Positions 25,025-40,450 of a stretch of 64,000 bases of DNA are shown here, piece by piece. The stretch is from Acidobacteriota bacterium (GTDB lineage Bacteria; Acidobacteriota; Thermoanaerobaculia; Multivoradales; JAGPDF01): NCBI GenBank assembly GCA_014584695.1, contig JACTMI010000042.1, positions 62,001 to 126,000 on the forward strand, written 5' to 3'. The stretch's first letter is position 1, and each line of letters begins with the position of its first letter. Made by a program: the position numbers and the translations under genes. A model generated the notes under the pieces. It was not told the origin of the DNA. It made no database searches and saw only the letters and a program-made list of their open reading frames with translations.

Positions 25025-26296
25025 ATGAAGAGAGTCGTGACGGCCATCCTGGGGGGCGGACAAGGAACTCGACTGTCACCGCTGACCCGCTACCGCGCCA
25101 AGCCCGCGGTGCCGATCGGAGGCAAGTTCCGGCTGATCGACATCCCCATCTCGAACTCGCTCCACGCCGGCATCGAGCGCGTCTACGTCATCACCCAGTA
25201 CGCCAGCGAGAGCCTGCACCGGCACATCGCCCAGACCTACAGGTTCGACGTCTTCCGCGGCGGTTTCGTCAACATCCTGGCCGCGGAGCAGAACGTCGCC
25301 AGCCGCGAGTGGTACCAAGGCACCGCCGACGCGGTGCGCCAGAACCTGACCCGCCTGATCGACGACAACCGGCCCGCCGAAGTCCTGATCCTCTCCGGCG
25401 ACCAGCTCTACATGATGGACATGCGCTCCTTCGTGCTCACGCACCGCGAGCGCAAGGCCGACCTCACGATCGCGGTCAAGCCGGTGTCGCGCGAGGAGGC
25501 GAAGGGGTTCGGCATCCTGCGGCTCGACCGCTCGGGCCGCGTCGTCGAGTTCGTCGAAAAGCCCTCCACCGACGCCACGCTCGACGCCCTCGCGCTCGAC
25601 GAGTCGACGCGCGACGCGCTCGGCTTCCCGGCGCCGCCGGGGGCGCTGCTCGCCAGCATGGGCATCTACGTCTTCCGGCCAGAGGTCCTGCGCGAGCTGC
25701 TGATCGGCTCGGATCACACCGACTTCGGCAAGGAGGTGATCCCCTCCGCGCTGGCTCGTTCGCGCGTCTTCGCCTTCCCCTACAACGGCTACTGGACCGA
25801 CATCGGCACCATCCCGAGCTTTCACCAAGCGAACCTCGACTTGACGCTGCCGCTGCCACCGCTCGATCTCTACGATCCCGACTACCGGATCTACACCCAC
25901 GCGCGCTTCCTTCCCGGCACCAAGATCAACCAGTGCGCGGTGATCAGCTCGATCTTGTGCGAGGGCTCGATCATCACCGGCGCCCGGATCGTCGACTCGA
26001 TCGTCGGCATCCGCGCCGTGGTCAGGACCGGCACCACGATCGAACGCAGCATCGTCATGGGCGCCAACCACTTCGAGCGCATCGACGAATCGCAGCCGCA
26101 CGGGCAGATGATCGGCATCGGCCGCGACTGCCGGATCCGCAACGCCATCATCGACTTCAACGCCCGGATCGGCGACGGCTGCGTGCTGACCAACGAGGGC
26201 GGCGTCGCCGAGGCCGACACCGAGAGCTACTCCATCCGCGGCGGCATCATCGTGGTGCCGAAGAACGCGGTGGTGGCGCCGGGGACGGTGGTCTGA
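25025..26296 (+). CDS. glgC: Glucose-1-phosphate adenylyltransferase
   Basis: 423 residues, full length for bacterial ADP-glucose pyrophosphorylase, which makes the glucosyl donor for glycogen. The N-terminal nucleotidyltransferase domain opens with L-G-G-G-Q-G-T-R-L-S-P-L-T and has the substrate loops F-R-L-I-D-I-P-I-S-N-S and F-V-E-K-P. The C-terminal third is a left-handed beta helix (C-A-V-I-S-S, I-V-D-S-I-V-G hexapeptides). ATG 25025 follows a GGGAGGGGCG ribosome site. Its stop overlaps the start of glgA by one base (TGATG), so translation is coupled. Confidence 0.96.
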   Translation: MKRVVTAILGGGQGTRLSPLTRYRAKPAVPIGGKFRLIDIPISNSLHAGIERVYVITQYASESLHRHIAQTYRFDVFRGGFVNILAAEQNVASREWYQGTADAVRQNLTRLIDDNRPAEVLILSGDQLYMMDMRSFVLTHRERKADLTIAVKPVSREEAKGFGILRLDRSGRVVEFVEKPSTDATLDALALDESTRDALGFPAPPGALLASMGIYVFRPEVLRELLIGSDHTDFGKEVIPSALARSRVFAFPYNGYWTDIGTIPSFHQANLDLTLPLPPLDLYDPDYRIYTHARFLPGTKINQCAVISSILCEGSIITGARIVDSIVGIRAVVRTGTTIERSIVMGANHFERIDESQPHGQMIGIGRDCRIRNAIIDFNARIGDGCVLTNEGGVAEADTESYSIRGGIIVVPKNAVVAPGTVV

Positions 26297-27753
26297 TGCC
26301 GTCGCGGATCTGCCAGATCGCCGCCGAGACGACGCCGTTCGCCAAGACCGGCGGCCTCGGTGACGTCGTGGCCGGCCTGTCCCGGGCGCTCGCCCTCGGC
26401 GGCCACGACGTCCGGGTCTTCCTGCCCTTCTACCAGCGCATCGCCAGACTCGACTTCCCCTTCGTCTGGGTCGACTTCCTGCGCGATTTCGAGATCGCGT
26501 TGGGCGCCCGCCGTTTCCAGGTCTCCGTGCTGACCACGCGCCTGCCGGCGAGCGGCGTCGACGTCTACCTCGTCCACTGCCCGGCGCTCTATCACCACGA
26601 GTCGATCTACAGCGGCGACTGGGACGAGTACCTCCGTTTCGCTCTCCTCACCCGGGCCGCGATCGAGAGCTGCCAGCGCATGGGTTGGGCGCCGGAGATC
26701 GTGCACGTCCACGATTGGCACGCGGCGCTGGCGCCTATCTACCTCAAGACGATCTACGCCTGGGACCGGCTGTTCGCGGGCACCCGGACGGTGCTCACCC
26801 TGCACAATCTCGGCTATCAGGGGGCCTTTGGCGCCCAGGTCCTGGGCGACCTCGGGCTCGACGGCCACTCCCATCTGCTCCATCAGGAGGATCTCGCCGC
26901 CGGCCGGATCAGCTTCCTCAAGACCGGCCTGCTCTACGCCGATCTGCTCACCACCGTCTCGCGAACCTACGCCCGCGAGATCCAGACTCCCGAGTACGGC
27001 TTCGGCCTCGACCCGCTGCTGCGCGCGCGCGCCGACAGCCTGGTGGGGATCGTCAACGGCGTCGACTACGGCGAATGGAATCCGGCCGAGGATCCGCACC
27101 TGCCGCACCGCTACTCCGCCGGCGACCTGTCGGGCAAGGCGCGGATGAAGCAGGCGTTGCTCGAGAAGATCGGCCTTCCCCACCGCGTCGAGGCGCCGGT
27201 GCTCGGCATCGTCACCCGGCTGACCGCCCAGAAGGGGCTCGATCTGCTGTTCGACACGCTGCCGGAGTTCCTCTACCACCGGGACCTCCGCTTCGTGGCG
27301 CTCGGCAGCGGCGAGGAGCGCTACGAGTCGTTCCTGTCCTGGCTGCAGGTGTCGTTCCCGGGCAAGGCCTGGTACTTCCGCGGCCACAACGAGGAGCTCG
27401 CGCACTGGATCGAGGCCGGAGCCGACATCTTCCTGATGCCCTCGCGTTACGAGCCCTGCGGCCTCAATCAGATGTACAGCCTGCGCTACGGGACGCCCCC
27501 GGTGGTCCGCCGGACCGGCGGACTGGCCGATACCGTCGAGCCCTGGAATCCCGTGGCCCGGCAGGGCACCGGCTTCCTCTTCGACCACTTCACTCCGGAG
27601 GGCCTGCGCTGGGGGATCGACGCCGCGCTGCGGGCCTTCAGCGACGCCGACAGCTGGCGCCAGCTGATCGCCAACGGCATGGCGAAGGATTTCTCGTGGG
27701 GGCGCCAGGTCGGAGCCTACGAAGCGGCCTTCCGGAAGCTCCTGAGCGCTTGA
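26296..27753 (+). CDS. glgA: Glycogen synthase (GT5 family, ADP-glucose)
   Basis: 485 residues, normal for GlgA. The donor-binding K-T-G-G-L-G-D-V motif is at residues 16-23. The C-terminal GT-B half contains L-T-A-Q-K-G-L near 312 and the signature P-S-R-Y-E-P-C-G-L-N-Q-M-Y-S-L-R-Y-G-T near 385, which includes the catalytic acidic residue. The product elongates alpha-1,4-glucan from ADP-glucose. It is coupled to glgC upstream, and its stop overlaps a possible TTG start of the downstream membrane protein. glgX lies 10 kb away; no branching enzyme (glgB) is in the window. Confidence 0.96.
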   Translation: MPSRICQIAAETTPFAKTGGLGDVVAGLSRALALGGHDVRVFLPFYQRIARLDFPFVWVDFLRDFEIALGARRFQVSVLTTRLPASGVDVYLVHCPALYHHESIYSGDWDEYLRFALLTRAAIESCQRMGWAPEIVHVHDWHAALAPIYLKTIYAWDRLFAGTRTVLTLHNLGYQGAFGAQVLGDLGLDGHSHLLHQEDLAAGRISFLKTGLLYADLLTTVSRTYAREIQTPEYGFGLDPLLRARADSLVGIVNGVDYGEWNPAEDPHLPHRYSAGDLSGKARMKQALLEKIGLPHRVEAPVLGIVTRLTAQKGLDLLFDTLPEFLYHRDLRFVALGSGEERYESFLSWLQVSFPGKAWYFRGHNEELAHWIEAGADIFLMPSRYEPCGLNQMYSLRYGTPPVVRRTGGLADTVEPWNPVARQGTGFLFDHFTPEGLRWGIDAALRAFSDADSWRQLIANGMAKDFSWGRQVGAYEAAFRKLLSA

Positions 27754-29564
27754 GCGCCGAGGCGGCGGTGGCCCGCCCGGGGCGCGAGGCGGCGCCGCCC
27801 GCGCCGCAGCGCTCCGATTGGCTCTGGCCGCTTGCCGCCACGATCCTCGGCGTCGTCTCCGTTTTCCACGAGCAGCTGCGATCGGGTTTCGACCGCCTCC
27901 AGGTCTACCCGCAGGATCCGCTGTTCCAGAACTGGACCCTCGAGCACGTCTGGTCCTGGCTGCGCGGCACGCCGCTCGCCGCTGATCTCTGGACGCCGCC
28001 CTTCTTCCACCCCACCCCGGGCGCCCTCGCGCTCTCCGATCCGCAGTTCGGCCTGCAGATCTTCTACGGACCCGCGCGCCTGCTCGGCGCCGCGCCACAT
28101 CTCGCCTACACCTTGGCGGCCATGGCGGCGCTGGCCACCACCTTCGTCGCTTTCCATTGGCTGCTCCGAGGCGTCCTCGCGCTACCGATGCGCGGCGCGA
28201 CCATCGGCGCCTACCTGATCGCCTTCGGCTCGCCGCGCGCCGTGACCCTGAACCACCCGCACCAGTTCGTGCAGTTCCCCTCGGCGCTGGCGCTCGGGGC
28301 GGCGCTACTCGCCTTGGACGAGCGCCGGGCCCCGCGAACCCGCCAGCTGGCCGCCGCCACCGTGGCGCCCGCGGTCGCTCTGCAACTGGTCGCCAACGTC
28401 TACCTCGGCCCGCTGGTCGGCATGCTGCTAGTCGCCTTCGCCGTCATCCTCGGCTGCAGCCGGGAGGGTCGCCGCCGGATCGCGACGCTCGGCGCCCGCG
28501 GCGCGCTCGCCGTGACGACCGGAGCGCTGGTGGCGACGCTGATCGTGGCGCCGCTGGCGGCGCCCTTCGCCGCGGCGAACCAGGCAACGGGCGGCCCGAC
28601 GGCCGCCGAGATCGCGCTCTACGAACCTCGTCCGGCCTCGTGGCTGAACCCCGGCGCCGAGCACCTCGTCTCCCCCTGGCTGGAGCGAGCCCTGGGTCTC
28701 GAGCGCGTCGCGCCGGTGCAGTGGGCCCACCGGCTGGGCGTTGGGCTGTTCACCACCGCGCTCGTCCTGGCCGGGGCGGTGCTCTCGTGGCGGGAGCCTC
28801 GCCTGCGTTGGTTGGGTGGCGCCACGATCTGTCTCGCGCTGGCCACCTTGCGCATCGACGGCTGGGGCTCGCTCTGGTCGATCGGAGCGCAGGAGCTCGA
28901 TCCCTTGCGCGCGCTGCGGGTGATCTCGCGGGTCGGCTTGGCCGCGCTCCCCAGCGCTGGAATCGCCCTGGCGTTGGCTTGGCAGCACCTCGAAAGGCGC
29001 AGCTCCCGCGCCGTGCTCGCCCTGGCGACCGTGGCTGTTCTCGCCGAGCAGGTGCAGATTCAACCGAGCTTCGAGCTCGAGCCGCGGCGGCAGCGCGCGC
29101 GCCAGATCGCGGCGGCGATCCCGGCGGACTGCGATTCCTTCTACTACAGCCCCGTTCGCCTGGACCTCCCGGCTCGCCGGCCCGGTGCCCGGCGCGATTC
29201 CGCCGACCACCAGGTCGACGCCATGTGGGCGGCACTCGCCGCTGGCCGGCCCACTCTCAACGGCTACTCGAGCCATCCGCCGGCCGACTGGCCGCTCTAT
29301 CCGCCGGTGATCCTCCGGCCCGAAGACGTCGATGACCTCCGGTTCCGGCTGGGCCTCTGGATCGACCGGCGAGGCTTGGGCGACGAAACCGTCTGCTGGA
29401 TCCGCGCACGGATCCTCCGGCGGCGGGTCCAGGAGGTCGAGGTCGAGCGGCTGGGAGCGTTCGACGAGCCGCGCGAGAACCCCGCGCGACAGGTCAACGG
29501 ACCAGGGAGAGACGCCGGGGTAGCTGCGGATTCCTCGGTTGGTCCCGACGCAGCCCCGCCGTAG
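27750..29564 (+). CDS. Polytopic membrane protein, possibly GT-C-like, function unknown
   Basis: 604 residues if translation starts at the TTG that overlaps the glgA stop; a GTG at 27768 is an equally reasonable start. About ten hydrophobic segments occupy residues 20-440. A hydrophilic extracytoplasmic domain of about 150 residues follows, with a cluster reading N-G-Y-S-S-H-P-P-A-D-W-P-L-Y-P. An early loop, Y-P-Q-D-P-L-F-Q-N-W, resembles the acidic first loop of GT-C glycosyltransferases, and F-F-H-P-T-P follows it. That similarity is slight. Coupling to glgCA hints at a carbohydrate-related role. The C-terminal 25 residues look like read-through into non-conserved sequence. Confidence 0.7.
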   Translation: MSAEAAVARPGREAAPPAPQRSDWLWPLAATILGVVSVFHEQLRSGFDRLQVYPQDPLFQNWTLEHVWSWLRGTPLAADLWTPPFFHPTPGALALSDPQFGLQIFYGPARLLGAAPHLAYTLAAMAALATTFVAFHWLLRGVLALPMRGATIGAYLIAFGSPRAVTLNHPHQFVQFPSALALGAALLALDERRAPRTRQLAAATVAPAVALQLVANVYLGPLVGMLLVAFAVILGCSREGRRRIATLGARGALAVTTGALVATLIVAPLAAPFAAANQATGGPTAAEIALYEPRPASWLNPGAEHLVSPWLERALGLERVAPVQWAHRLGVGLFTTALVLAGAVLSWREPRLRWLGGATICLALATLRIDGWGSLWSIGAQELDPLRALRVISRVGLAALPSAGIALALAWQHLERRSSRAVLALATVAVLAEQVQIQPSFELEPRRQRARQIAAAIPADCDSFYYSPVRLDLPARRPGARRDSADHQVDAMWAALAAGRPTLNGYSSHPPADWPLYPPVILRPEDVDDLRFRLGLWIDRRGLGDETVCWIRARILRRRVQEVEVERLGAFDEPRENPARQVNGPGRDAGVAADSSVGPDAAPP

Positions 29565-30315: not shown

Positions 30316-30807
30316 TCAGCCTCGCCGCTCGAGCGCGCCGACCGCCCGGAGCAGCTCCGCGGGCAGCGCGCACTTGAGGCCGGCGCGGTAGTCGTAGGCC
30401 ACCACGATGCCCCAGCCCTCGGCCGCCGAGGCACCGCCGCGCAGCTCGCTCTCGATTCGGTAGCGCATGGTGAAGCGGTCGGCCGCGAGCTCGGAGACAC
30501 CGGCTCGCACTACCAATCGGTCGGGCCACGCCAGGGGCGCCCGGAAGCGGGCCTGGGTCGAATGGAGGATGGGCCCGATCCCGGTGACCGCCTCAATCGC
30601 CGGCCAGCCGATGCGCTCGAAGTAGGCCATGCGGGCGCTCTCGAACCAGCGGAAGTAGACGGCGTTGTTGACGTGCCGGTAAGCGTCCATCTCGCCCCAC
30701 TGCACGGCGAGCTCGAGCGCGACCGGGAAGCTCGTCCCCGCCCCGCCGCCACTCTCCGCGCCAGCTCGTTCAGAGCTCGGCGCGCCGCCCGTCGGTTGCG
30801 CGCTCAT
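30316..30807 (-). CDS. Acyl-CoA thioesterase, 4HBT hot-dog fold (YbgC/FadM-like)
   Basis: 163 residues. After a Gly/Ser/Ala-rich 25-residue lead, the single hot-dog domain shows V-Q-W-G-E-M-D-A-Y-R-H-V-N-N-A-V-Y-F. This is the family's catalytic helix region, with Asp41 and the H-V-N-N motif. Members hydrolyse short- or medium-chain acyl-CoA or hydroxybenzoyl-CoA. The ATG lies 38 bases inside the 3' end of the preceding esterase gene, so it is translated from the same message as the ATP-grasp/esterase pair, although a chance overlap cannot be excluded. It is the last gene of that minus-strand group. Confidence 0.85.
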   Translation of the reverse strand: MSAQPTGGAPSSERAGAESGGGAGTSFPVALELAVQWGEMDAYRHVNNAVYFRWFESARMAYFERIGWPAIEAVTGIGPILHSTQARFRAPLAWPDRLVVRAGVSELAADRFTMRYRIESELRGGASAAEGWGIVVAYDYRAGLKCALPAELLRAVGALERRG

Positions 30808-31546
30808 CCCGCGCGATCTCCTCGAGGTAGACCGGCAGCGTCGACCGCCAGGATTGCCAGTCGTGATGCCAATCGGAGCCCCAGACGTCGACCCGGTTCG
30901 GTACCCCGCGCCGCCCGAGGACGCTCGCCACCCGGTAGGCGTAGTCCGGCCGCTCCGCGCGCCCCCGGCCGCAGACCAGCCGGACGAACCGTCGCCGCAG
31001 CAGCTCGAAGTGCCCGGCGTCCTCGAGCCACGGCAGAAAGTGCAGCGGTGAGGTGTAGTGAAAGTCGAGCGGCGGCGGCGCCGCCTCGAAGCAGTCCGCG
31101 AGGTCGTATTTGCCCGACAGGCAAACCGCGTCCCGGAAGGCGTCCGGGTGGCGGCAGACCGAGACCAGCGCGAACAGGGCGCCCAGCGAAGCGCCGGCCG
31201 CCACGACTTCGCCGGCGGGCTCGCCGGTCTGCCAGCGGATCCAGGGCACCAGCTCGTGGTAGACGAAGACGTCGAAGCGGTGCATCAGCTCGGCGAAGCG
31301 CTCGGGAGTCGGATCCTCGGTGAGCAGCGCTCGACCGGGCACGCTGTCGCAGGAGAAGAGGCGGACCCGCCCGCTCTCGACCAGCGGCTCGAGGGCTCCA
31401 GTGAGGCCGAACCGCTCGACTTCGCGCGCGTCGCCGCCCGCGGTCGGAAAGAGCAACACCGGCACGCCGCCGCGCCCCCACGCCGCCACCCCGACTTCGC
31501 GCCCGAGCGGCTCCGAGCGCCAGACCTCGACCTGGACGGGGCTCAC
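30770..31546 (-). CDS. Alpha/beta-hydrolase esterase (esterase-D-like)
   Basis: 258 residues from a GTG that overlaps the ATP-grasp stop as GTGA. The nucleophile elbow is G118-A-S120-L-G, in V-V-A-A-G-A-S-L-G-A-L-F-A, and the likely catalytic histidine lies in W-G-S-D-W-H-H-D-W near residue 235. An aspartate before L-S-G-K-Y-D completes the region. The fold matches putative esterases of the PF00756 type (esterase D, enterochelin esterase, mycolyltransferase). No signal peptide is present, so it acts in the cytoplasm. Translation is coupled to the ATP-grasp ligase, which suggests it acts on that enzyme's product or substrate. Confidence 0.8.
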   Translation of the reverse strand: MSPVQVEVWRSEPLGREVGVAAWGRGGVPVLLFPTAGGDAREVERFGLTGALEPLVESGRVRLFSCDSVPGRALLTEDPTPERFAELMHRFDVFVYHELVPWIRWQTGEPAGEVVAAGASLGALFALVSVCRHPDAFRDAVCLSGKYDLADCFEAAPPPLDFHYTSPLHFLPWLEDAGHFELLRRRFVRLVCGRGRAERPDYAYRVASVLGRRGVPNRVDVWGSDWHHDWQSWRSTLPVYLEEIARDERATDGRRAEL

Positions 31547-32811
31547 TCCCGCGGACGCTCCCGCGAGGCCTTGAGGTACTCCGCTTCGGTCCGCCGCCAG
31601 AACTGGATCAGACCCCAGAAGTGCTCGGTGAACTGCTCGACCTCGTGAGCCGGGAACAGCGCCTCGACCTTCCTGCGGACCGCCTCCTTCGCCGCCGAGG
31701 TGCCGAAGAACTCCCAGGTCACCTCGTCGATGTGGGCCAAGTGCGTGGCGCAGAACTCGACGAACCGGTCGCTCTCGAAACGCTGGTGCGCGATGCGCGC
31801 GTAGCGGGAGAGCTTCTCCGCGAACGGCGCGTCGGTGGCGGCGATCTCGCAGAACGGTTCCCAATCGAGGTTCTTGCGCATCTTCCGCTTCGTGGCGGCG
31901 ACGAACAACGCCCACTTGAGCTTGGCCTTGACCAACCACGGGAAGTGGTAGTGCAGCGAGGTGACCTGCGAGTCCGGGCAGGCGTTGGCGAAGTCGATCG
32001 GGAAGAAGACGCCGTTTTGCCGCAGCGCCTCGCAGGAATTGAAATCCCAACCGAAGAAGGCGTTGATGGTCAGGCACATGTTGGCCATCGTCTGCCACTC
32101 TTCGGCGTCGACGAAGTCGAAGGCGACCTTGTAGCGGTCGTGCAGAGGCGCCGCCGGGTCGTACTTCATCAGGTGGACCTGGGGCCCGACGCCGACCGCG
32201 CGCACGAACAGGTCGAACGGATCGACCGCCTTCTGCAGGTGCATGATCCGCTTGCCGGAACCGTCGTAGGCCTCGAGGAGCTCCTTCTGGTTCGAGATCT
32301 TCGAGACACCGACCCAGGCGCCGCCGTCGAAAGGCTTGATGAACTGGGGATACCCCACCGCGGCACCGACGTCGGCCAGGTCGAACAGCTTCGCGTAGCG
32401 GTCGAGCGTGACCTGCAGGTCGGCGGTCGGCTCGTACTCCTTGGGCGGCAGCAGCCAGGTGTCGGGCACCGGCAGGCCGAGCCGCATCATCGCCGCGTAG
32501 CTGGTGTGCTTCTCGTTGGCCTGGATCGACCAGGGGTTGTTCAGCACGTAGAGGTCGTCCATCACGACCGCTTTCTTGATCCACTCGCGGCTGGTGTGGT
32601 ACCAGTGCGTCAAGCGGTCGAGAACGACGTCGTAGCGCACCGGCTGCCGCAGGTCGAAGGGCTCGATGGTGACCCGCTCGACCTCGAAGCGGAGCGTGTC
32701 CCCCGCGAAGGGGATCGCGAGGTTCAGGCGTTTCAGGATCTCCTCGAAACAGATCGGCCAACAGAGGTCGGCCCCCAGCGACAGCCCGATCCTCCTCGTC
32801 ACCTCGGCCAT
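31543..32811 (-). CDS. ATP-grasp ligase-like protein, substrate unknown
   Basis: 422 residues. The ATP-grasp core runs from about 110 to 310. It has Y-P-Q-F-I-K-P-F-D-G-G-A-W-V-G-V near 178, where the lysine and glycine loop contact ATP, H-L-Q-K-A-V near 217, and the metal-binding V-F-F-P-I-D-F-A-N-A near 285. It is RimK/D-Ala-ligase-like in layout but carries an extra C-terminal helical region of about 110 residues. Such enzymes join a carboxylate to an amine or thiol via an acyl-phosphate. ATG 32811 follows GGAGGGGG. It heads the pair with the downstream esterase. Substrates cannot be inferred. Confidence 0.8.
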   Translation of the reverse strand: MAEVTRRIGLSLGADLCWPICFEEILKRLNLAIPFAGDTLRFEVERVTIEPFDLRQPVRYDVVLDRLTHWYHTSREWIKKAVVMDDLYVLNNPWSIQANEKHTSYAAMMRLGLPVPDTWLLPPKEYEPTADLQVTLDRYAKLFDLADVGAAVGYPQFIKPFDGGAWVGVSKISNQKELLEAYDGSGKRIMHLQKAVDPFDLFVRAVGVGPQVHLMKYDPAAPLHDRYKVAFDFVDAEEWQTMANMCLTINAFFGWDFNSCEALRQNGVFFPIDFANACPDSQVTSLHYHFPWLVKAKLKWALFVAATKRKMRKNLDWEPFCEIAATDAPFAEKLSRYARIAHQRFESDRFVEFCATHLAHIDEVTWEFFGTSAAKEAVRRKVEALFPAHEVEQFTEHFWGLIQFWRRTEAEYLKASRERPRE

Positions 32812-33025
32812 CTTCGCCCCCTCCGCTCTCGGGTTCCAGCCGTCTCAATCTAGCTCAAGCCGGCGGCGAATTCACCCGGCAACCCCCCGGGGACCGCGCG
32901 CACCCCCCGTCCCCCGACGGGCGTCCGCCGCGAGCCCGGCTCCGCCCGGGTTCGCCGGGTGCTGGAACCGCCCCGGTGAAGGGGTCGGCGACGGGGGCGT
33001 CGGTGACCACCGGCGGCCGGACGCG

Positions 33026-34162
33026 CTACTCGTAGATCATCCAGAGCGGCCCCGGGAACAGGAAGGAGAGGCCTTCGCGCAGGCGGTCGCGCCAGTTTTC
33101 CCAGTTGTGGCCGTCGTGCGCTTCGACGTAGCGGACGTCCATGCCGGTCTTCTGGAGCAGCGGAACCAGCGAGCGATTCTCGTAGATCAGGGACTCGTAG
33201 ACGCCGCAGCTGACGAAGACGCGCTCGGCGACGCGGACGGGGCTCTCGCGATAGTCGTTCACCATCTCGACGATCGGCTCGAATAGCGGGCCCCGGCGCG
33301 ACGGCCCGATGTCGGTGAAGGCGAACGAGCCCGACTGCAGCAGCAGACGGCCGAAGCGCTCGGGGTACCTGAGGGCGGCCGCGAAGGAGGCGACGGCGCC
33401 GAAGCTCGCCCCCGCCAGGGCCCGGTTCTCCGGCCCCCTGCCCAGGGGGTAGCGGGCCTCGAGCACGGCGGGGAGCTCCTCGCCGACGAACTGGCTGTGC
33501 CGAGGATCGGTGGCGTACTCGCGCAGCCGGTCCCGCGACTGCGTGAGCGCCACCACCAGCGGCGCCACCTCGTCGCGGAAGATCAGGTTGTCGAGCACCG
33601 TCTGGAGCGACGAGAAGCGCAGGTAGTCACGGCCGTCGTGGACGATCAGCAGCGGATAGCGCCGCCGCGTCCGGAACCGCGCCGGCAGGTAGACCAGCAC
33701 CTCCTCGTCACGGCCCAGCGCCGCCGAAGGGACGCGGATCGACTCGACCTTCCCCTGCCGCGCCTGCGGATCGCGCTCCGCCCACTCGGGGGCGCGGTAC
33801 TCGGCGCCGTGGCAGACCGAGTTGGCGCCGAACGGATCGTGAGCCAGCGACGGGTTGAGCGGGTCCCGAATCAGGCGATTGGTGTCCCCGCGCTGCACCT
33901 CGAGCTTGTACTCGACGCGGGAGCGGAGAGGAATGTCCTGGATCAGGTACCAGAGGTCGGTCCCCTCGACGCGCAGGAAGGGCTGCGCCGACGGCAGGCC
34001 GAAGATCCAGTGCTGCAGGTAGACGGCGTCCGCCTCACCGCGGTAGACAAAGGTGACGTTGCGACCCTCGACGATCGGCACCTCGCGGCCGGCCAGGAAC
34101 TCGTCGACCGCCGCGTCGTCCGGTTCCTCCAGCTCGAGCAGACGCCGGATGGCGATCGTCAC
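33026..34162 (-). CDS. Enterochelin-esterase-like hydrolase with N-terminal beta-sandwich domain
   Basis: 378 residues from a GTG overlapping the previous stop as GTGA. Residues about 30-125 look like an early-set/CBM48-like beta sandwich (V-T-F-V-Y-R-G-E-A-D). Residues about 140-370 are the PF00756-type esterase, with the elbow A-G-A-S253-F-G-A, an acidic residue near Y-E-S-L-I-Y and catalytic histidine in A-H-D-G-H-N-W. The arrangement is that of the siderophore esterase Fes, but there are no siderophore genes nearby. Pairing with the S51-like gene by overlap and with a second esterase/ATP-grasp pair downstream argues for a different substrate. Confidence 0.82.
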   Translation of the reverse strand: MTIAIRRLLELEEPDDAAVDEFLAGREVPIVEGRNVTFVYRGEADAVYLQHWIFGLPSAQPFLRVEGTDLWYLIQDIPLRSRVEYKLEVQRGDTNRLIRDPLNPSLAHDPFGANSVCHGAEYRAPEWAERDPQARQGKVESIRVPSAALGRDEEVLVYLPARFRTRRRYPLLIVHDGRDYLRFSSLQTVLDNLIFRDEVAPLVVALTQSRDRLREYATDPRHSQFVGEELPAVLEARYPLGRGPENRALAGASFGAVASFAAALRYPERFGRLLLQSGSFAFTDIGPSRRGPLFEPIVEMVNDYRESPVRVAERVFVSCGVYESLIYENRSLVPLLQKTGMDVRYVEAHDGHNWENWRDRLREGLSFLFPGPLWMIYE

Positions 34163-35088
34163 GCGAGCTCCATCGGCGTCAGCCCGCCGTCCGGCAGGAG
34201 CCGTCGCATCCCCGGCCCGCCCACCCAGCGCTCGCCGTCCCGGACCAGCCAGGCGCCGTCGGTCATGGCGACGCAGGTGGCAGGAGCGAAACGGCGGGCG
34301 AGCAGACCGATCCGTCGGCGGTCGCCGAGGTCGAGCCGGCGCTCAGCGTGGGGAAAGGGGACGATGCCGGGAGCCAAGCCGAGGCCGTTCTCCAGCACCT
34401 CCGTATTGCCGTACCCCTGGGGCGGCGAGTGATGGAAGAGCACCACCCTCTCGGCAATTGCCATCGCTCCGGCCGACCAGGCGAAGACGGTCCGACCCGC
34501 GAGCGCCCGGTCGAGGCCGAAGAGACGGAGCCGGTTCAGCAGCACCGCCACGTGGCCGCCGGCGATGGCGATCGCCTCGACGCCGTCGAGCACCTGGGCG
34601 ACCTGCCGGCGCGAGCGCGCAAGCGCCGGGCGCTCGCCCGGCCGCCAGCGGCGCTCGAACTCGGCGTGGACGGAGGCGACGCGTTCCAAGTGCTCACGAT
34701 CGAGCGCGCGGATGGCCGCCAGCGCCGAATCTCGAGCCGCGTCGAGAGCCTCCAGATTCCCCGTCCGCTGGGCGAGCTCCCGCAGCGCCGCCTGGGCGTG
34801 GGCCAGCCGGACACGGTAGGTCTCCTGCAGGGCGCGCAGCAGCTCCTGGCGCTCCCGATAGCCGCTCGCCAGCTCGGCATCGCGCTCGAACAACTCCTCG
34901 CCGCGGGCGTAGAGCCGCAGGTTCACGGTCCGCTCTCCCAGATGCTCGTGGAGGTCGAGATCCTCCGTCTCGCGCTCTTGCCAGCCGGCGGTGACGGAGG
35001 CGAGCTTGCCGCCCACGCCGAGGCGGTCGACCACTTCGCCGAGCGTCGGCGTGAAGCGCTGGGGACCGAGCAGAACGACGCGAGGCAC
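34159..35088 (-). CDS. S51/cyanophycinase-like (type 1 glutamine amidotransferase-like) protein
   Basis: 309 residues from a GTG. The C-terminal half has the peptidase S51 signature A-W-S205-A-G-A-M, where Ser205 would be the nucleophile, and an F-P-H247-A-E-R-R-L that could supply the histidine, as in peptidase E and cyanophycinase. The first 150 residues, partly coiled coil rich in Arg, Glu and Leu, are not part of the usual S51 core. S51 enzymes cut alpha-aspartyl peptides or cyanophycin. Together with two ATP-grasp ligases nearby this suggests metabolism of a non-ribosomal amide-linked compound, which is inference. It diverges from the second ATP-grasp gene with 125 bases between. Confidence 0.75.
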   Translation of the reverse strand: MPRVVLLGPQRFTPTLGEVVDRLGVGGKLASVTAGWQERETEDLDLHEHLGERTVNLRLYARGEELFERDAELASGYRERQELLRALQETYRVRLAHAQAALRELAQRTGNLEALDAARDSALAAIRALDREHLERVASVHAEFERRWRPGERPALARSRRQVAQVLDGVEAIAIAGGHVAVLLNRLRLFGLDRALAGRTVFAWSAGAMAIAERVVLFHHSPPQGYGNTEVLENGLGLAPGIVPFPHAERRLDLGDRRRIGLLARRFAPATCVAMTDGAWLVRDGERWVGGPGMRRLLPDGGLTPMELA

Positions 35089-35213
35089 GGCGGAGCATCC
35101 TATCGCTTCGCCGCGTCCGCGACGGCGGCCACCGCCGGCTCCCCCGGCGGTAGAATGGCGCGGCGGGAGTGGGCGGGTCGCGGTCGGCCGGCCAGCGAGC
35201 GAGGGGAGGCGCC

Positions 35214-36434
35214 ATGCACGTACTGTTCGTCGAGCCGAAGTTCCCCTTCAACCAGCGGCAGTTCGTCCGCGCGCTGCACGCGGTCGGGGCGCGCGTCACC
35301 GGCATCGGCGAGGCGCCGATCGAAGCGCTCGACGGCGAGCTCAAGAGCTGGCTGCGCGGCTACGAGCAGGTGCGCACCGTGGTCGACGAGGGGGCGCTGT
35401 TCGAGGCGGTGCGGAGGGTGCAGCACCGGGAGTGGGTGGATCGGCTGGAGGCGACGGTCGAGGCGCACATTCTCCCCGCCGCGAAAGTGCGCGAGGCCGC
35501 CGCCATCCCGGGCACTTCGGTGCGGACCGCGTTCCTGTGCCGGGACAAGCCGGCGATGAAGGACGCCCTGCGCGAGGCGGGCGTTCCCTGCGCCCAGTCC
35601 CGGGCCGTCGCTTCCGGCCAGGAGCTGCGGATGTTCGCCGCCGAAGTGGGTTTTCCGATCATCCTCAAGCCGCGCGCCGCGGCCGGCGCGGCGGGCACGC
35701 AGCGAGTCGACAACGACCGCGAGCTCGAGAGCGCGATCGTCGCCCAGGGCCTCGACCAGGGGCTCTCGGTGGCGGCCGAGGAGTTCATCGAGGGGCACGA
35801 GGGGTTCTACGACACGGTCGCGATCGGCGGCCGCGTCGTCCACGAATTCGTCTCCCACTACTACCCCAACGTGCTGGAAGCGATGCGGACGCGCTGGATC
35901 TCGCCCCAGATCGTGACCACGAATCGCGTCGACGCGCCCGGCTACAGCGAAGTCCGCCACCTCGGGCAGCGCGTCATCCAGGCGCTCGACATCGGCACCT
36001 CGGCCACCCACATGGAGTGGTTCTTCGGCCCCAAGGGGCTGAAATTCTCCGAGATCGGCTGCCGGCCGCCGGGCGTGGGGGTCTGGGACCTCTACGCCGC
36101 CGCCAACGACTTCGACCTCTACCGCGAATGGGCGATGGCGATCGTCCACGGCCACCCGGGCCAGGCGCCGTCCCGCCGCTATTCCGCCGGCATGATCAAC
36201 CTCCGCCCGAGCCGGGACGGCCGGGTCGCCGGCTACGAGGGCATCGACCAGATCGAGCGCATGTTCGGCGAGTGGATCATCGACAGCCACCTGCCGCCGC
36301 CCGGCTCCCCCACCGCCGGTGTCGAGGGGGGGTACATGGTCAACGCCTGGATCCGGATGAAGCACCCGGACTACGACCAGCTGCGCCGGATGCTCGATAC
36401 CGTCGGCCGCACGGTCAAGGTGCTGGCGGCCTAG
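35214..36434 (+). CDS. ATP-grasp ligase-like protein (carbamoyl-phosphate-synthase/PurK-like core)
   Basis: 406 residues from ATG 35214, preceded by GAGGGGAGG. The preATP-grasp region is residues 1-100 (M-H-V-L-F-V-E-P-K-F-P-F), and the ATP-grasp core about 105-300. The core has V-G-F-P-I-I-L-K-P-R-A-A-A-G-A-A-G-T near 145, V-A-A-E-E-F-I-E-G near 188 and the metal-binding F-S-E-I-G-C-R-P-P-G near 280. It is from a different ATP-grasp branch than the protein at 31543-32811, so the two are not recent duplicates. Its 3' end overlaps the convergent TetR gene by 20 bases. Substrate unknown. Confidence 0.8.
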   Translation: MHVLFVEPKFPFNQRQFVRALHAVGARVTGIGEAPIEALDGELKSWLRGYEQVRTVVDEGALFEAVRRVQHREWVDRLEATVEAHILPAAKVREAAAIPGTSVRTAFLCRDKPAMKDALREAGVPCAQSRAVASGQELRMFAAEVGFPIILKPRAAAGAAGTQRVDNDRELESAIVAQGLDQGLSVAAEEFIEGHEGFYDTVAIGGRVVHEFVSHYYPNVLEAMRTRWISPQIVTTNRVDAPGYSEVRHLGQRVIQALDIGTSATHMEWFFGPKGLKFSEIGCRPPGVGVWDLYAAANDFDLYREWAMAIVHGHPGQAPSRRYSAGMINLRPSRDGRVAGYEGIDQIERMFGEWIIDSHLPPPGSPTAGVEGGYMVNAWIRMKHPDYDQLRRMLDTVGRTVKVLAA

Positions 36435-37116
36435 ACCCGGATTCTCCGCGGCCGAGCTCGGCCCGCACCCACGCCTCCAGGCCGCGCGCGACCTCGTCGG
36501 TGAAGTTCCGCCCGGCCGCCGGCGAACGGGCCGGCTCGGCCCGCTCGGGCTCTCCGCTCGGCGCCCCGGCGAGCAGGTCCGCGCAGCCCGCCGCGAGCGC
36601 CTGCGCGGCGAGCAGCAGGCGGAGGCCGCCGCCGGGCGCGAGCGGTGCGACCGCCGTTTCCAGCCGCGCGCCGAGCTCTTCGAGCTGTTCCTGCCGGCGG
36701 CGTTCGAAGCGCTCCGTGCTCTCTCGATCGAGCCCCGCCGTCAATACCGGGTGGCGCAACGCCAGCAGCGCCACGAGGCGGGGCCGTTGCGCCAACGTTT
36801 CGGCAAGCGCCAGTGCCAGCGCACTCGCGTCCCGATCCGAAGCGGCCCGCCCCGCGCTTCGGAGCAAACCGTTCGAGCGCTCCTCGAGCGCTCGAATCCA
36901 CTCCTCCTGGTCGTCGAGCAGCAGCTCCGAGAAGAGGGCCTCCTTGGAGCGGAAATAGAGGTAGGTCGTGCCCTTGGCGAGGCCGGCGGCGGCGGCAACG
37001 CCGGACATCGTCGTCGCCGCGTAGCCGGAGCTGTCGAGGCAGCTCGCGGCGGCGGCCAGGAGCTGGCGGCGACGGCCGAGCCGGGCGCGGGCGTCACGGG
37101 CACGCTGGGCGGGCAT
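36415..37116 (-). CDS. TetR/AcrR family transcriptional regulator
   Basis: 233 residues. The N-terminal DNA-binding domain at residues 15-62 has the TetR consensus: G-Y-A-A-T-T-M-S-G-V-A-A-A-A-G-L-A-K-G-T-T-Y-L-Y-F, written across the turn and recognition helices. The rest is a variable, Ala/Leu-rich ligand domain. A TAGACT at 37126-37131 (minus strand) could be its -10 box. It is divergent from the iron-sulfur repair gene with 135 bases between and convergent with an ATP-grasp gene, so either neighbour could be its target; the divergent gene is the more usual choice. Confidence 0.88.
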   Translation of the reverse strand: MPAQRARDARARLGRRRQLLAAAASCLDSSGYAATTMSGVAAAAGLAKGTTYLYFRSKEALFSELLLDDQEEWIRALEERSNGLLRSAGRAASDRDASALALALAETLAQRPRLVALLALRHPVLTAGLDRESTERFERRRQEQLEELGARLETAVAPLAPGGGLRLLLAAQALAAGCADLLAGAPSGEPERAEPARSPAAGRNFTDEVARGLEAWVRAELGRGESGSRPPAP

Positions 37117-37251
37117 CGAAGCGCGAGTCTAGCCTCGGCCGGGGCGTGCCGGATCTCCTCCTTGCGCCACGGCAACGATCCCGGCGGCGATTCCTTCTAC
37201 TTTTCTGCCGTCGCTGCGGAAGCTCCGGAGCGATCTCGACAGGAGGCTCTC

Positions 37252-37986
37252 TTGAAGATCGACCCCACCCTGCATGTCGCCGATCTGGTGACCCGCTATC
37301 CCGCGACGCTGCGCGTTTTCCAGCGCCACGGCATCGAGTTCTGCTGCGGCGGCCGCAAGCCGCTGGAGCTCGTCTGCACGGCCCACGGCCTCGAGCTCGA
37401 CGAGCTGCTGGCCGAGCTCGAGGCTTCACTCGCCGAACCGGCGCCGGAGCTCGACTGGCGCGCCCGGCCGCTCTCGGAGCTGGTCGATCACATCGTCGAG
37501 CGCTATCACCGCCCCCTGCCCGAGGAGCTCGAGCGGATCCGCCGGATGGCGGATCGGGTCCTCGAGCGCCATGGCGCCAGCGACCCGGAGCGGCTCCATC
37601 GGCTGGCCGAGGTCGTGCGCGAGCTTTCGGCCGAGCTGGAGAGGCACCTGTTCCAGGAGGAGCGAGCGCTCTTCCCCGCCATCAAGGCGCTCGAAGCCGA
37701 GAGCCTGGGCAGCGAGGCGGTGCCCGCGCGACCTCTGGCACTGGAGACCTTCGAGCAGGAGCACGACGAGGCCGGGCGAGCGCTGGCCGAGATTCGCGCG
37801 CTGACCGCGAACTTCCGCCCCCCCGCCGACGCCTGCAACACCTACCGCGGCCTCTACGACGCGCTCGCGCGGCTCGAGCAGGAGATGCATCTCCACGTCC
37901 ATCTCGAGAATCACGTCCTGTTTCCGAGGGCCGCGCAGATCGGCACGGAGCGGTCACCGGCGGGCGCCGCTCCTCCGAGGGCCTGA
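37252..37986 (+). CDS. ric: Iron-sulfur cluster repair di-iron protein (ScdA/YtfE/RIC)
   Basis: 244 residues. Translation from a TTG at 37252 is strongly supported by a perfect AGGAGG at 37241-37246 and by the family N-terminus starting there. The DUF542 domain (residues 1-55) ends with F-C31-C32-G-G. The hemerythrin-like domain (about 80-235) supplies the di-iron histidines and glutamates in V-D-H-I-V-E-R-Y-H, R-H-L-F-Q-E-E, E-Q-E-H-D-E and H-V-H-L-E-N-H. RIC proteins restore clusters damaged by nitric oxide or oxidants. The divergent TetR gene may control it. Confidence 0.92.
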   Translation: MKIDPTLHVADLVTRYPATLRVFQRHGIEFCCGGRKPLELVCTAHGLELDELLAELEASLAEPAPELDWRARPLSELVDHIVERYHRPLPEELERIRRMADRVLERHGASDPERLHRLAEVVRELSAELERHLFQEERALFPAIKALEAESLGSEAVPARPLALETFEQEHDEAGRALAEIRALTANFRPPADACNTYRGLYDALARLEQEMHLHVHLENHVLFPRAAQIGTERSPAGAAPPRA

Positions 37987-37993
37987 AGCGCGC

Positions 37994-40075
37994 TCAGCGC
38001 GCCACCAGCACGCGCACCGAGCGCGCGGCGACGCGCAACTCGGAGGTGCGCGGCGCGAGCCGCGGCCGCGCTCCCGGGGGCGGGTTCCCCGCCCCCCACG
38101 CCACCGCGGTATCGACGGCGAGGCTCCAGCCGAGCCCATCGGGCGCCGTCGGCAGCGGGAAGGTCAGTTCGGCGGGGGTCGGATTGACCGCGATCAGCGC
38201 CGCTGCGACGCCCGTCGCGCCCGCGCCCGCCGAGGCCTGGACGGGGTTGCGGTAGAGCACGAGCGCGCCCGCGGCGGGCTCTCCGGGTGCCGCGAAGGGC
38301 GCCGAGATCGCCATCGGATCCCGCGCCAGATCCGCCAGCTCCCGCCGCAGCGCCAGCAGGCGGCGTGTCCAGCCGACGCTTTCCGGCTCCTCCGTCCCCC
38401 AGTCGAGCCAGCCGATCTCGTTGTCCTGGCACCAGGCGTTGTTGTTGCCGCGCTGCGTGCGGCCCCGTTCGTCGCCAGCCAGCAGGAGAACGTTGCCGGC
38501 GCCCGACAACCCGGTGAGCGCGAGCAGATTCCTCACCTGCCGCGGGCGCAGCGCCGCCACTGCGGCATCCTCGGTGGGACCCTCGACGCCGCAATTCCAG
38601 CTCAGGTCGGCTCCCGCGCCGTCGCGGTTGCCCTCGCCGTTGGCCTGATTGTGCTTGCGGTCGTAGGCCACCAGGTCGGCAACCGGGAAGCCGTCGTGGC
38701 AGGCGACGAAATCGACCGCGTGCAGGCGCGATCGGCTCCCGGAGAAGCGATCCGGACTGCCGGCGAGACGCAGGGCGACGAGCTCGCTCGACAGCCGGTC
38801 GCCGCGCACCAGACGCCGCATGTCGTCGCGGAACGGACCGTTCCATTCCCGCCAGGGCGCGGGGAACCCGCCGCGCGGCGTGAAGCCGACGACGTCCCAC
38901 GGCTCCGCGATCAGGAGCCGGCCGTCGAGCTCCGGCAGGGCCGCGATCTCGTCGAGGAGCGGCGGCCGCTCCACCACTTCGCCCCGACCATCCCGGTAGA
39001 GGAAAGCCGCGAGGTCGAAGCGGAAGCCGTCGACGTAGTAGCTCTCGACCCAGTGCCGGAGCGAGTCGAGGATGAGCCGGCGGGCCACCGGGTGCTGGGC
39101 GTCGACGGTGTTGCCGCAGCCGGTGAAGTCGAGCGGACGCCCCGTCTCTGGATCTCTCAGGTAGTAGCCCTCGCCGTCGAGACCCCGCCAGGAGTGGAGC
39201 GGGTCGCCCGCGCCGCCCGCCCCTTCCGCGGTGTGGTTGTAGACGACGTCGACAACGACCTCGAGCCCCGCCCGGTGCAGCTCGTCGACCAGCTGCCGCA
39301 GCTCACCGACCGCCGCTCCGGGAGTCGGGTCGGCGGCGTAGCCGGCCTTGGGCGCGAAGAAAGAGATCGGGCTGTAGCCCCAGAAGTTGAGCAATCGCTC
39401 CCCGGTCTCGGGGCTCCGCCGCGGGTTCTCGGTCTCGTCGAACTCGAACACCGGCAGGAGCTCGACCGTAGTCACGCCGAGGGAAACCAAGTAGGGGATC
39501 TTCTCCACCAGGCCGGCATAGGTTCCGGGCCGGGCGACGCCGGAAGAGGGGTGCCGCGTGAAGCCGCGCACGTGCAGCTCGTAGATCACCCGCGCCCGCT
39601 CGTCGACCCGTGGCTGCGGGGGTCGCGCCGCAGTGAGACCGGGCGCCGCTCGGCCTGGCCGGCCGCCCAGCTCCCGCCCGAACAGCCCTCGATGGCGACG
39701 CCCGACGCCCGGGCCGAGGAGGTCGTCGCTCCGCCCCCAGACCTCACCGCCGGTGAGGCAGGGCGCGTAGGGATCGACCAGCGGCGGCCCGCCCCCCACG
39801 CGCACGACGTACTCGAACCGCTCGAGCGCCGCCGGCCACTCCCCGCGCCAGATCGAGAACGGCTCGGCGACCGCGGCGTCGCGCTCGAGCGGCACGCGCG
39901 CGGCCACGCGGTCGCCGCCGCCCACCTCGAAGATCTCGACCTCGACGCGCGGCTCGATCCCTCGACCCGGTCGGGCGTGGACCGAGAAGGCCACCCGCTC
40001 GCGCGGCCCCGAGACCCACCTCGGACCCAGCGCAGCAAGACCCTCCGACGGAGAAGGCGAGGTCATGCCGGACAT
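37994..40075 (-). CDS. glgX: Glycogen debranching enzyme GlgX (isoamylase family, GH13)
   Basis: 693 residues from ATG 40075; an ATG three codons later is also possible, and a longer in-frame extension lacks family similarity. An N-terminal CBM48 domain (residues 10-150) precedes the GH13 barrel. Its motifs are D-V-V-Y-N-H-T (region I), G-F-R-F-D-L-A (region II, nucleophile Asp), I-A-E-P-W-D-V (acid/base Glu region) and V-A-C-H-D-G-F (region IV). It removes alpha-1,6 branches during glycogen breakdown, complementing glgC/glgA at 25-27.8 kb. Its stop is 7 bases from the convergent ric gene. Confidence 0.93.
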   Translation of the reverse strand: MSGMTSPSPSEGLAALGPRWVSGPRERVAFSVHARPGRGIEPRVEVEIFEVGGGDRVAARVPLERDAAVAEPFSIWRGEWPAALERFEYVVRVGGGPPLVDPYAPCLTGGEVWGRSDDLLGPGVGRRHRGLFGRELGGRPGRAAPGLTAARPPQPRVDERARVIYELHVRGFTRHPSSGVARPGTYAGLVEKIPYLVSLGVTTVELLPVFEFDETENPRRSPETGERLLNFWGYSPISFFAPKAGYAADPTPGAAVGELRQLVDELHRAGLEVVVDVVYNHTAEGAGGAGDPLHSWRGLDGEGYYLRDPETGRPLDFTGCGNTVDAQHPVARRLILDSLRHWVESYYVDGFRFDLAAFLYRDGRGEVVERPPLLDEIAALPELDGRLLIAEPWDVVGFTPRGGFPAPWREWNGPFRDDMRRLVRGDRLSSELVALRLAGSPDRFSGSRSRLHAVDFVACHDGFPVADLVAYDRKHNQANGEGNRDGAGADLSWNCGVEGPTEDAAVAALRPRQVRNLLALTGLSGAGNVLLLAGDERGRTQRGNNNAWCQDNEIGWLDWGTEEPESVGWTRRLLALRRELADLARDPMAISAPFAAPGEPAAGALVLYRNPVQASAGAGATGVAAALIAVNPTPAELTFPLPTAPDGLGWSLAVDTAVAWGAGNPPPGARPRLAPRTSELRVAARSVRVLVAR

Positions 40076-40450
40076 CGCCTCGAAAGCGAGAAACCCACCG
40101 GGAAGGAGAACCTCGGTCGCTGCCACCGTGACCGCGACCTCGACGCGAGCCGAGATCGCCGCGGAGAAGCTCCGCGCGGGAGACGGCCGGGCGGGGCCCG
40201 ATGGCATGCAACGCGCGTGATCGGAGGCGCTCCACCGGGTCTCTCGGAATCCCGGCTCTCGCAACCAGCTCCCCCCTCACCAACCCCTTCAAAAGAAAGT
40301 CTTTTCAGCGCAGCGGACGCCACGCCGGCGACGCCCTCGCCACCAGCGTCACCAGCCAAGCCGGGAAACGGAGTCTTCTCCGGGCGTCCCGAGCACACTC
40401 CAGGCCGCAACCGCTCCGGGGCTGCGCGGCGGCCCGGACCCATCCGCGGC
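40076..40450 (-). other. Intergenic region between korB and glgX
   Basis: 375 bases with no credible gene. It holds an A/T-richer patch around 40290-40320 (AAAAGAAAGTCTTTT), unlike the surroundings and possibly promoter-related. I could not pair it with clear -35/-10 boxes, and no T-tract terminator follows korB. Confidence 0.4.

Follow-up and report, generated by a model that had tools for sequence, protein, structure and literature searches.

The window analysed here, a 64,000-nucleotide stretch of an Acidobacteriota contig, contains a divergent cluster of six genes at 30316-36434 in which two ATP-grasp ligases, two esterases and an S51-like hydrolase are encoded together with a thioesterase. 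The original prediction had described these six open reading frames with their strands and junctions, and all were confirmed on rereading the sequence. The alpha-glucan context of the cluster had been missed, although GlgC, GlgA and a GlgX-like gene flank it. The cluster and its principal neighbors are as follows.

25025-26296, plus strand: GlgC, glucose-1-phosphate adenylyltransferase (NF002772 above cut-off), overlapping glgA by 4 bases; near the system in a minority of loci
26293-27753, plus strand: GlgA, ADP-glucose glycogen synthase (TIGR02095, 515 bits against a cut-off of 328), a member of the system-linked clade
30316-30807, minus strand: 4HBT thioesterase (Pfam 4HBT above cut-off)
30770-31546, minus strand, GTG start: EST2, single-domain PF00756 esterase (Pfam above cut-off), core gene
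31543-32811, minus strand: GRASP1, atypical ATP-grasp ligase with a C-terminal helical extension (by predicted structure), core gene
33026-34162, minus strand, GTG start: EST1, two-domain esterase with an E-set (CBM48-type) domain and a PF00756 domain, core gene
34159-35088, minus strand, GTG start: S51-like serine hydrolase of the class I amidotransferase fold (Pfam S51), core gene
35214-36434, plus strand, ATG start: GRASP2, ATP-grasp ligase of L-amino acid ligase type (PF02222 above cut-off), core gene
36415-37116, minus strand: TetR regulator, convergent with GRASP2 and overlapping its end by 20 bases; a genus-specific neighbor
37994-40264, minus strand: GlgX-like glycogen debranching enzyme (TIGR02100, 471 bits, under the cut-off of 641), a context gene

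EST2 and GRASP1 overlap by four bases, as do EST1 and the S51-like gene, and the thioesterase and EST2 overlap by 38 bases; the divergent gap between the S51-like gene and GRASP2 is exactly the 125 bases originally given. A distance of 2.6 kb separates GlgC and GlgA from the thioesterase end of the cluster. A simple hydropathy test found no signal-peptide-like N-terminus in the six cluster proteins. On the plus strand, glgA is followed by a long reading frame (27762-29564) with no Pfam match and a membrane-like translation, and a gene for an iron-sulfur cluster repair di-iron protein (37195-37986; TIGR03652 above cut-off) lies between the cluster and the GlgX-like gene. The TetR gene was considered as a member of the system and rejected as a genus-specific bystander.

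GRASP1 fell under every Pfam cut-off, and its assignment to the ATP-grasp enzymes therefore came from a structure model (pLDDT 88), which matched ArgX/LysX and D-Ala-D-Ala ligases and carried an added helical domain. Residues K159, E261, D273 and N276 were invariant in the GRASP1 alignment. Enzymes of the ATP-grasp superfamily form an acyl phosphate and transfer its acyl group to an acceptor amine or hydroxyl. The best PDB matches of GRASP2 and of two further ATP-grasp families of the system, GRASP3 and GRASP4, were L-amino acid ligases (E 1e-36 to 4e-23, with the GRASP2 profile matching ligase 4wd3 at 1e-36), a similarity that places all three with this family. GRASP2-4 also conserve the lysine and the acidic residues that an active ATP-grasp enzyme should have, so that they resemble L-amino acid ligases (BL00235 type, 4wd3; BacD) in both profile and conserved ligase residues. 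Judged by these matches, GRASP2-4 appear to be of the L-amino acid ligase type, with ligation activity predicted. The L-amino acid ligases known to us serve dipeptide or antibiotic synthesis, and we know of none described with a glycogen synthase and Fes-like esterases.

Both esterases matched PF00756 above the Pfam cut-off, and the EST1 nucleophile S253 and H352, as well as EST2 S120 and H228, were invariant. The EST1 model (pLDDT 93) consists of an E-set N-terminal domain followed by an alpha/beta hydrolase. Over its full length, EST1 most closely matched the enterobactin esterase Fes (TM 0.72), with which (as Fes/IroD) it shares a two-domain layout and 22-24% identity. The context of EST1 is different from that of Fes, with no siderophore genes in the locus and ATP-grasp and alpha-glucan genes as neighbors, and assignment as a Fes-type enterochelin esterase was rejected on this ground and on a score of 103.6 bits against the NF007758 cut-off of 222. 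CBM48-CE1 feruloyl and acetyl xylan esterases have the same domain order, an E-set domain of carbohydrate-binding type and then a CE1-type esterase; these enzymes act on plant polysaccharides, whereas EST1 lacks a signal-peptide-like start, and the feruloyl esterases gave lower full-length TM values (0.57-0.60). By fold, the E-set domain of EST1 resembles CBM48 and is predicted to be of carbohydrate-binding type.

The S51-like protein scored barely above the Pfam S51 cut-off (25.9 against 23.9 bits) and was only weakly similar to solved structures. It carries an AWSAGA nucleophile elbow in which S205 is nearly invariant, and H219 is invariant, as expected of an S51 family member. One homologue (L148:5703-6632) has ACAGGAM in place of AWSAGAM and hence no nucleophile serine.

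About 85,000 genomes, one per species, were scanned with the GRASP1 alignment, and the loci studied were the best 80 of 587 confirmed matches. The S51-like gene, EST1, GRASP1, EST2 and GRASP2 recurred jointly in Acidobacteriota, Planctomycetota, Myxococcota, Gemmatimonadota and Pseudomonadota. Near GRASP1, EST1 was found in 57 of these best 80 of 587 loci, S51 in 44 and GRASP2 in 39. The arrangement was also conserved within this best-80 sample: EST1 lay no more than 500 bases upstream of GRASP1 in 51/80 loci and EST2 no more than 500 bases downstream in 47/80, while S51 was directly upstream of EST1 in 45/80. As a control, the remaining window genes of more than 200 amino acids were sought in the same 80 loci (best 80 of 587), and none outside the glycogen genes occurred in more than one of them; the flanking GlgC gene was found in 7/80 and the GlgX-like gene in 2/80, and the window GlgA, which was not on the control list, was tested separately. 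The low control rate combined with the recurrence of EST1, S51 and GRASP2 near GRASP1 shows that the linkage is not due to chance.

The gene-neighborhood comparison suggested by the original prediction thus found its families linked in many genomes. They were linked in Acidobacteriota, the scope first proposed, but are not specific to that phylum, occurring in four others and in reduced form in Actinobacteria. The divergent cluster was borne out as a conserved linked set except for the thioesterase, which here lies in the same transcription unit, yet is not conserved with the system; it was present in a single locus, from the same genus, among the best 80 of 587, and was rejected as a member. 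A unit of six genes also proved too narrow, since the system reaches GlgA (26293-27753) and ATP-grasp paralogues outside the window. In its complete form, the set comprises GRASP2, GlgA, GRASP3, GRASP4, S51, EST1, GRASP1 and EST2 inside about 15 kb, and all eight genes were present in 12/80 loci (best 80 of 587). The window cluster is one half of this conserved bacterial gene set, which is found in at least five phyla.

The reduced form in Actinobacteria includes an EST1-EST2-GRASP1 arrangement close to glycogen genes in Knoellia and Leekyejoonella, which we retain as weak evidence. At L174, these are genes for GlgB, maltokinase, an amylase-family protein and phosphoglucomutase; in Asanoa, by contrast, an elongation-factor-type gene adjoins the reduced set. 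Seven actinobacterial genomes that carry the reduced form were searched, and none had GlgA at the threshold used. Where the set occurs in Myxococcota and Planctomycetota, a GCS2-type amidoligase fused to CBS domains can adjoin EST2 (L130:11945-13918 and seven other loci). A further module in Acidobacteriota (L088-L100; e.g. L089:8987-12562) contains a short GRASP1 relative with about 30% identity, often with an EST2-like esterase. It carries a carboxylate-amine ligase and a circularly permuted ATP-grasp protein and has no glycogen genes, which suggests that GRASP1/EST2 chemistry need not require a glucan.

Unbiased clustering of all open reading frames around GRASP1 (best 80 of 587 loci) returned GRASP1, EST1, EST2, a GRASP2/3/4 group and S51, with GlgA, in 21 loci, as the most frequent family after this core. 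Further families in the same best 80 of 587 loci were GlgC-like proteins and GCS2-type amidoligases with CBS domains (eight loci each), and smaller ones included MalQ, alpha-glucan phosphorylase, and GlgX or maltokinase genes; the recurrent families beyond the core and GlgA were mostly alpha-glucan or amidoligase genes. GlgA was directly beside an ATP-grasp paralogue in 19/80 loci (best 80 of 587), and some alpha-glucan gene was present in 29 of the 56 loci from this sample that spanned at least 14 kb.

The window GlgA is the sole GlgA of its genome and carries the KTGGL motif (AKTGGLGD) expected of a glycogen synthase. On the same contig, about 26 kb before the window start and about 56 kb from the cluster, are three tandem GRASP2 paralogues (C41:32586-36245; L080:10587-14246) that adjoin a DHH-family gene, a GH57 branching enzyme and an alpha-glucan phosphorylase with DUF3417. 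Glycogen genes thus surround the two parts of the system, the cluster and the paralogue trio alike. One further GRASP2 paralogue (C40:40394-41602; L087) with 54% identity is beside genes for a BlaR1-type M56 peptidase, an OsmC-like protein and a flavoprotein, and no glycogen genes were found near it in the stretch read.

The association with GlgA extended to whole genomes. Among 59 related genomes, 35 carried three or more core families, in most cases adjacent to one another, and GlgA was present in 35/35 of these genomes with the system; neither was found in 17, so that the system was absent from 17/17 relatives without GlgA, and GlgA occurred alone in seven (7/42 genomes with GlgA). Of the 36 GlgA genes from genomes that hold any system gene, 28 were within 10 kb of a system gene and 25 were within 3 kb, even though many of the assemblies are fragmented. 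In 151 genomes of one Planctomycetota class, GlgA matches fell into two score groups, type I higher and type II lower, a division by score that was chosen after the data had been seen. Type I GlgA and GRASP1 occurred together in 68 genomes and were both absent from 73, with five genomes having GRASP1 only and five of the 73 with type I GlgA having no detected GRASP1 (Fisher p ~2e-30, a value that overstates certainty because related genomes are not independent). Type II GlgA showed no association with GRASP1 in the same 151 genomes (both 33, GRASP1 only 40, GlgA only 39, neither 39; p 0.63), a comparison that serves as an internal control for genome completeness and not for lineage. The type II GlgAs tested had VRRTSL, VRRTNL or VRRTPL instead of the KTGGL motif, so that their donor or activity may differ.

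In a tree of 60 GlgAs, the system-linked proteins from five phyla formed a single clade (support 100/99) that excluded E. coli GlgA and the second GlgAs that several of these genomes carry. This clade also took in GlgAs from some genomes in which no system was detected. We conclude that S51, EST1, GRASP1, EST2, GRASP2, GRASP3 and GRASP4, together with one GlgA clade, have been inherited together across phyla.

Several characterized systems share parts of this set. Cyanophycin synthetase and cyanophycinase likewise pair an ATP-grasp ligase with an S51 serine hydrolase, the one assembling an amide reserve and the other cleaving it; however, the cluster has no Mur-ligase domain, GRASP2 resembles L-amino acid ligases more closely, the similarity to S51 is weak, and the cyanophycin system has no counterpart to the esterases and GlgA. 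Membership in that system was rejected, as the match was restricted to the ATP-grasp region and reached 38 bits against a cyanophycin synthetase cut-off of 877. Operons of the glgBXCAP type contain GlgA, GlgC, a GlgX-like enzyme, branching enzyme and phosphorylase, which likewise surround the system. The 2009 survey of ATP-grasp amidoligases by Iyer and colleagues reportedly described several ATP-grasp and GCS2-type amidoligases co-located with peptidases, and we know of no glycogen-synthase-linked set in it. The superfamily of each enzyme and the existence of ATP-grasp/peptidase clusters are therefore known, and the GlgA-linked set is the apparently new element. The original prediction knew of no described system with this set of families, and our search of the open literature, whose coverage was incomplete, likewise found no description of a GlgA-linked ATP-grasp/esterase set under ATP-grasp, amidoligase, glycogen modification, esterase, CBM48 or L-amino acid ligase topics. 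Neither ATP-grasp enzymes nor esterases come up in the accessible part of a 2024 review on the alpha-glucan enzymes of prokaryotes (PMC11046441).

We consider it very likely that the set forms one functional system linked to alpha-glucan metabolism. The combination of amino-acid-ligase-like GRASP2-4, ArgX-like GRASP1, two esterases and an S51-like enzyme is most economically read as a cycle in which amide and ester bonds are formed and cleaved, and the system probably performs such ligase-and-hydrolase chemistry; this agrees with the original proposal of a pathway that builds and turns over an amide- or ester-linked compound. The tie to GlgA further points to an alpha-glucan as the acceptor, or to a product that itself serves GlgA as acceptor. 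Our preferred reading, to which we assign a probability of roughly 0.4 as a whole, is that the set is part of a dedicated cytoplasmic alpha-glucan-linked amide/ester pathway in which the ligases build a conjugate and the esterases and S51-like enzyme reverse the process. GRASP2-4 and GRASP1 (ArgX/Ddl-like fold) would activate carboxylates with ATP as acyl phosphates and couple amino acids or small acids to amine or hydroxyl groups, yielding a short peptide- or aminoacyl-type conjugate. This conjugate would be attached to the alpha-glucan of the dedicated GlgA or would serve as the acceptor that GlgA extends. EST1, with its E-set domain, and EST2 would remove or transfer the ester-linked group, and the S51-like enzyme would cut a peptide or isopeptide bond, allowing the components to be recovered. 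Covalent coupling of a group to the glucan is possible, with the odds leaning somewhat against it; a role of EST1 on glucan is opposed by its greater full-length similarity to Fes, which does not act on sugars. The likely use of such a pathway would be as a combined carbon and nitrogen reserve or as a tag controlling the solubility or turnover of glycogen particles, a storage role in itself being unlikely.

The system could instead make a separate soluble peptide-like compound, an osmolyte or nitrogen reserve. The S51-like enzyme and the esterases would turn this compound over, and its link to glycogen would be one of co-regulation only, never of attachment. L-amino acid ligases, which GRASP2-4 match, normally make free dipeptides, and the GRASP1/EST2 module occurs with other amidoligases away from glycogen genes, the main reason why we retain this explanation. 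The system nevertheless tracks one GlgA type and not the other of the same phylum, which is tighter than co-regulation of storage predicts, and EST1 has a domain of carbohydrate-binding type. We regard a soluble compound as a serious candidate with a real, if less than even, chance of being correct. In a second alternative, GlgA would act on a small acceptor to give a soluble glucoside or maltooligosaccharide conjugate, such as a primer or compatible solute. The existence of a dedicated GlgA clade distinct from the second GlgA, and of amide/ester ligases and a Fes-like esterase in one locus, is consistent with this; in the window genome, though, this clade is represented by the only GlgA, a gene with ordinary glycogen genes around it, which makes a small conjugate improbable.

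ATP-grasp ligases and alpha/beta hydrolases also recur in the loci of graspetides, ribosomal peptides cross-linked by ATP-grasp enzymes (PMC8939145), a source in which glycogen goes unmentioned. No ATG-started reading frame of at least 20 amino acids was found in either intergenic gap of the window cluster, and the gaps in other loci are mostly about 60-70 bases and leave no conserved room for a precursor; we therefore rejected the graspetide reading, which is strongly disfavored. Finally, although every family is common on its own, the view that these are unrelated housekeeping neighbors, each in its own known pathway, is refuted by the conservation of order and strand in many phyla, the near absence of the control genes from the best 80 of 587 loci and the co-occurrence of GRASP1 with type I GlgA.

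Bacterial glycogen is regarded as a simple polymer of glucose, with only a few enzymes responsible for its synthesis and breakdown. That a conserved eight-gene set tracks one GlgA clade indicates that a substantial part of alpha-glucan biology is undescribed; roughly half of the genomes sampled from one Planctomycetota class carry the marker gene of the set, which also occurs in several other phyla. These results give testable functions to families now named putative esterase, hypothetical ATP-grasp protein or S51-like peptidase, and they predict that two GlgA types in one genome do different jobs. The most far-reaching version of the alpha-glucan-linked pathway, which we consider rather unlikely, is that many bacteria make a modified glycogen in which the alpha-glucan of the dedicated GlgA clade is loaded with amino-acid, peptide or acyl groups by four ATP-grasp ligases and unloaded by two esterases and the S51-like hydrolase. 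If true, the groups would turn glycogen into a reserve of both carbon and nitrogen through their covalent attachment, or would mark it with a regulatory tag.
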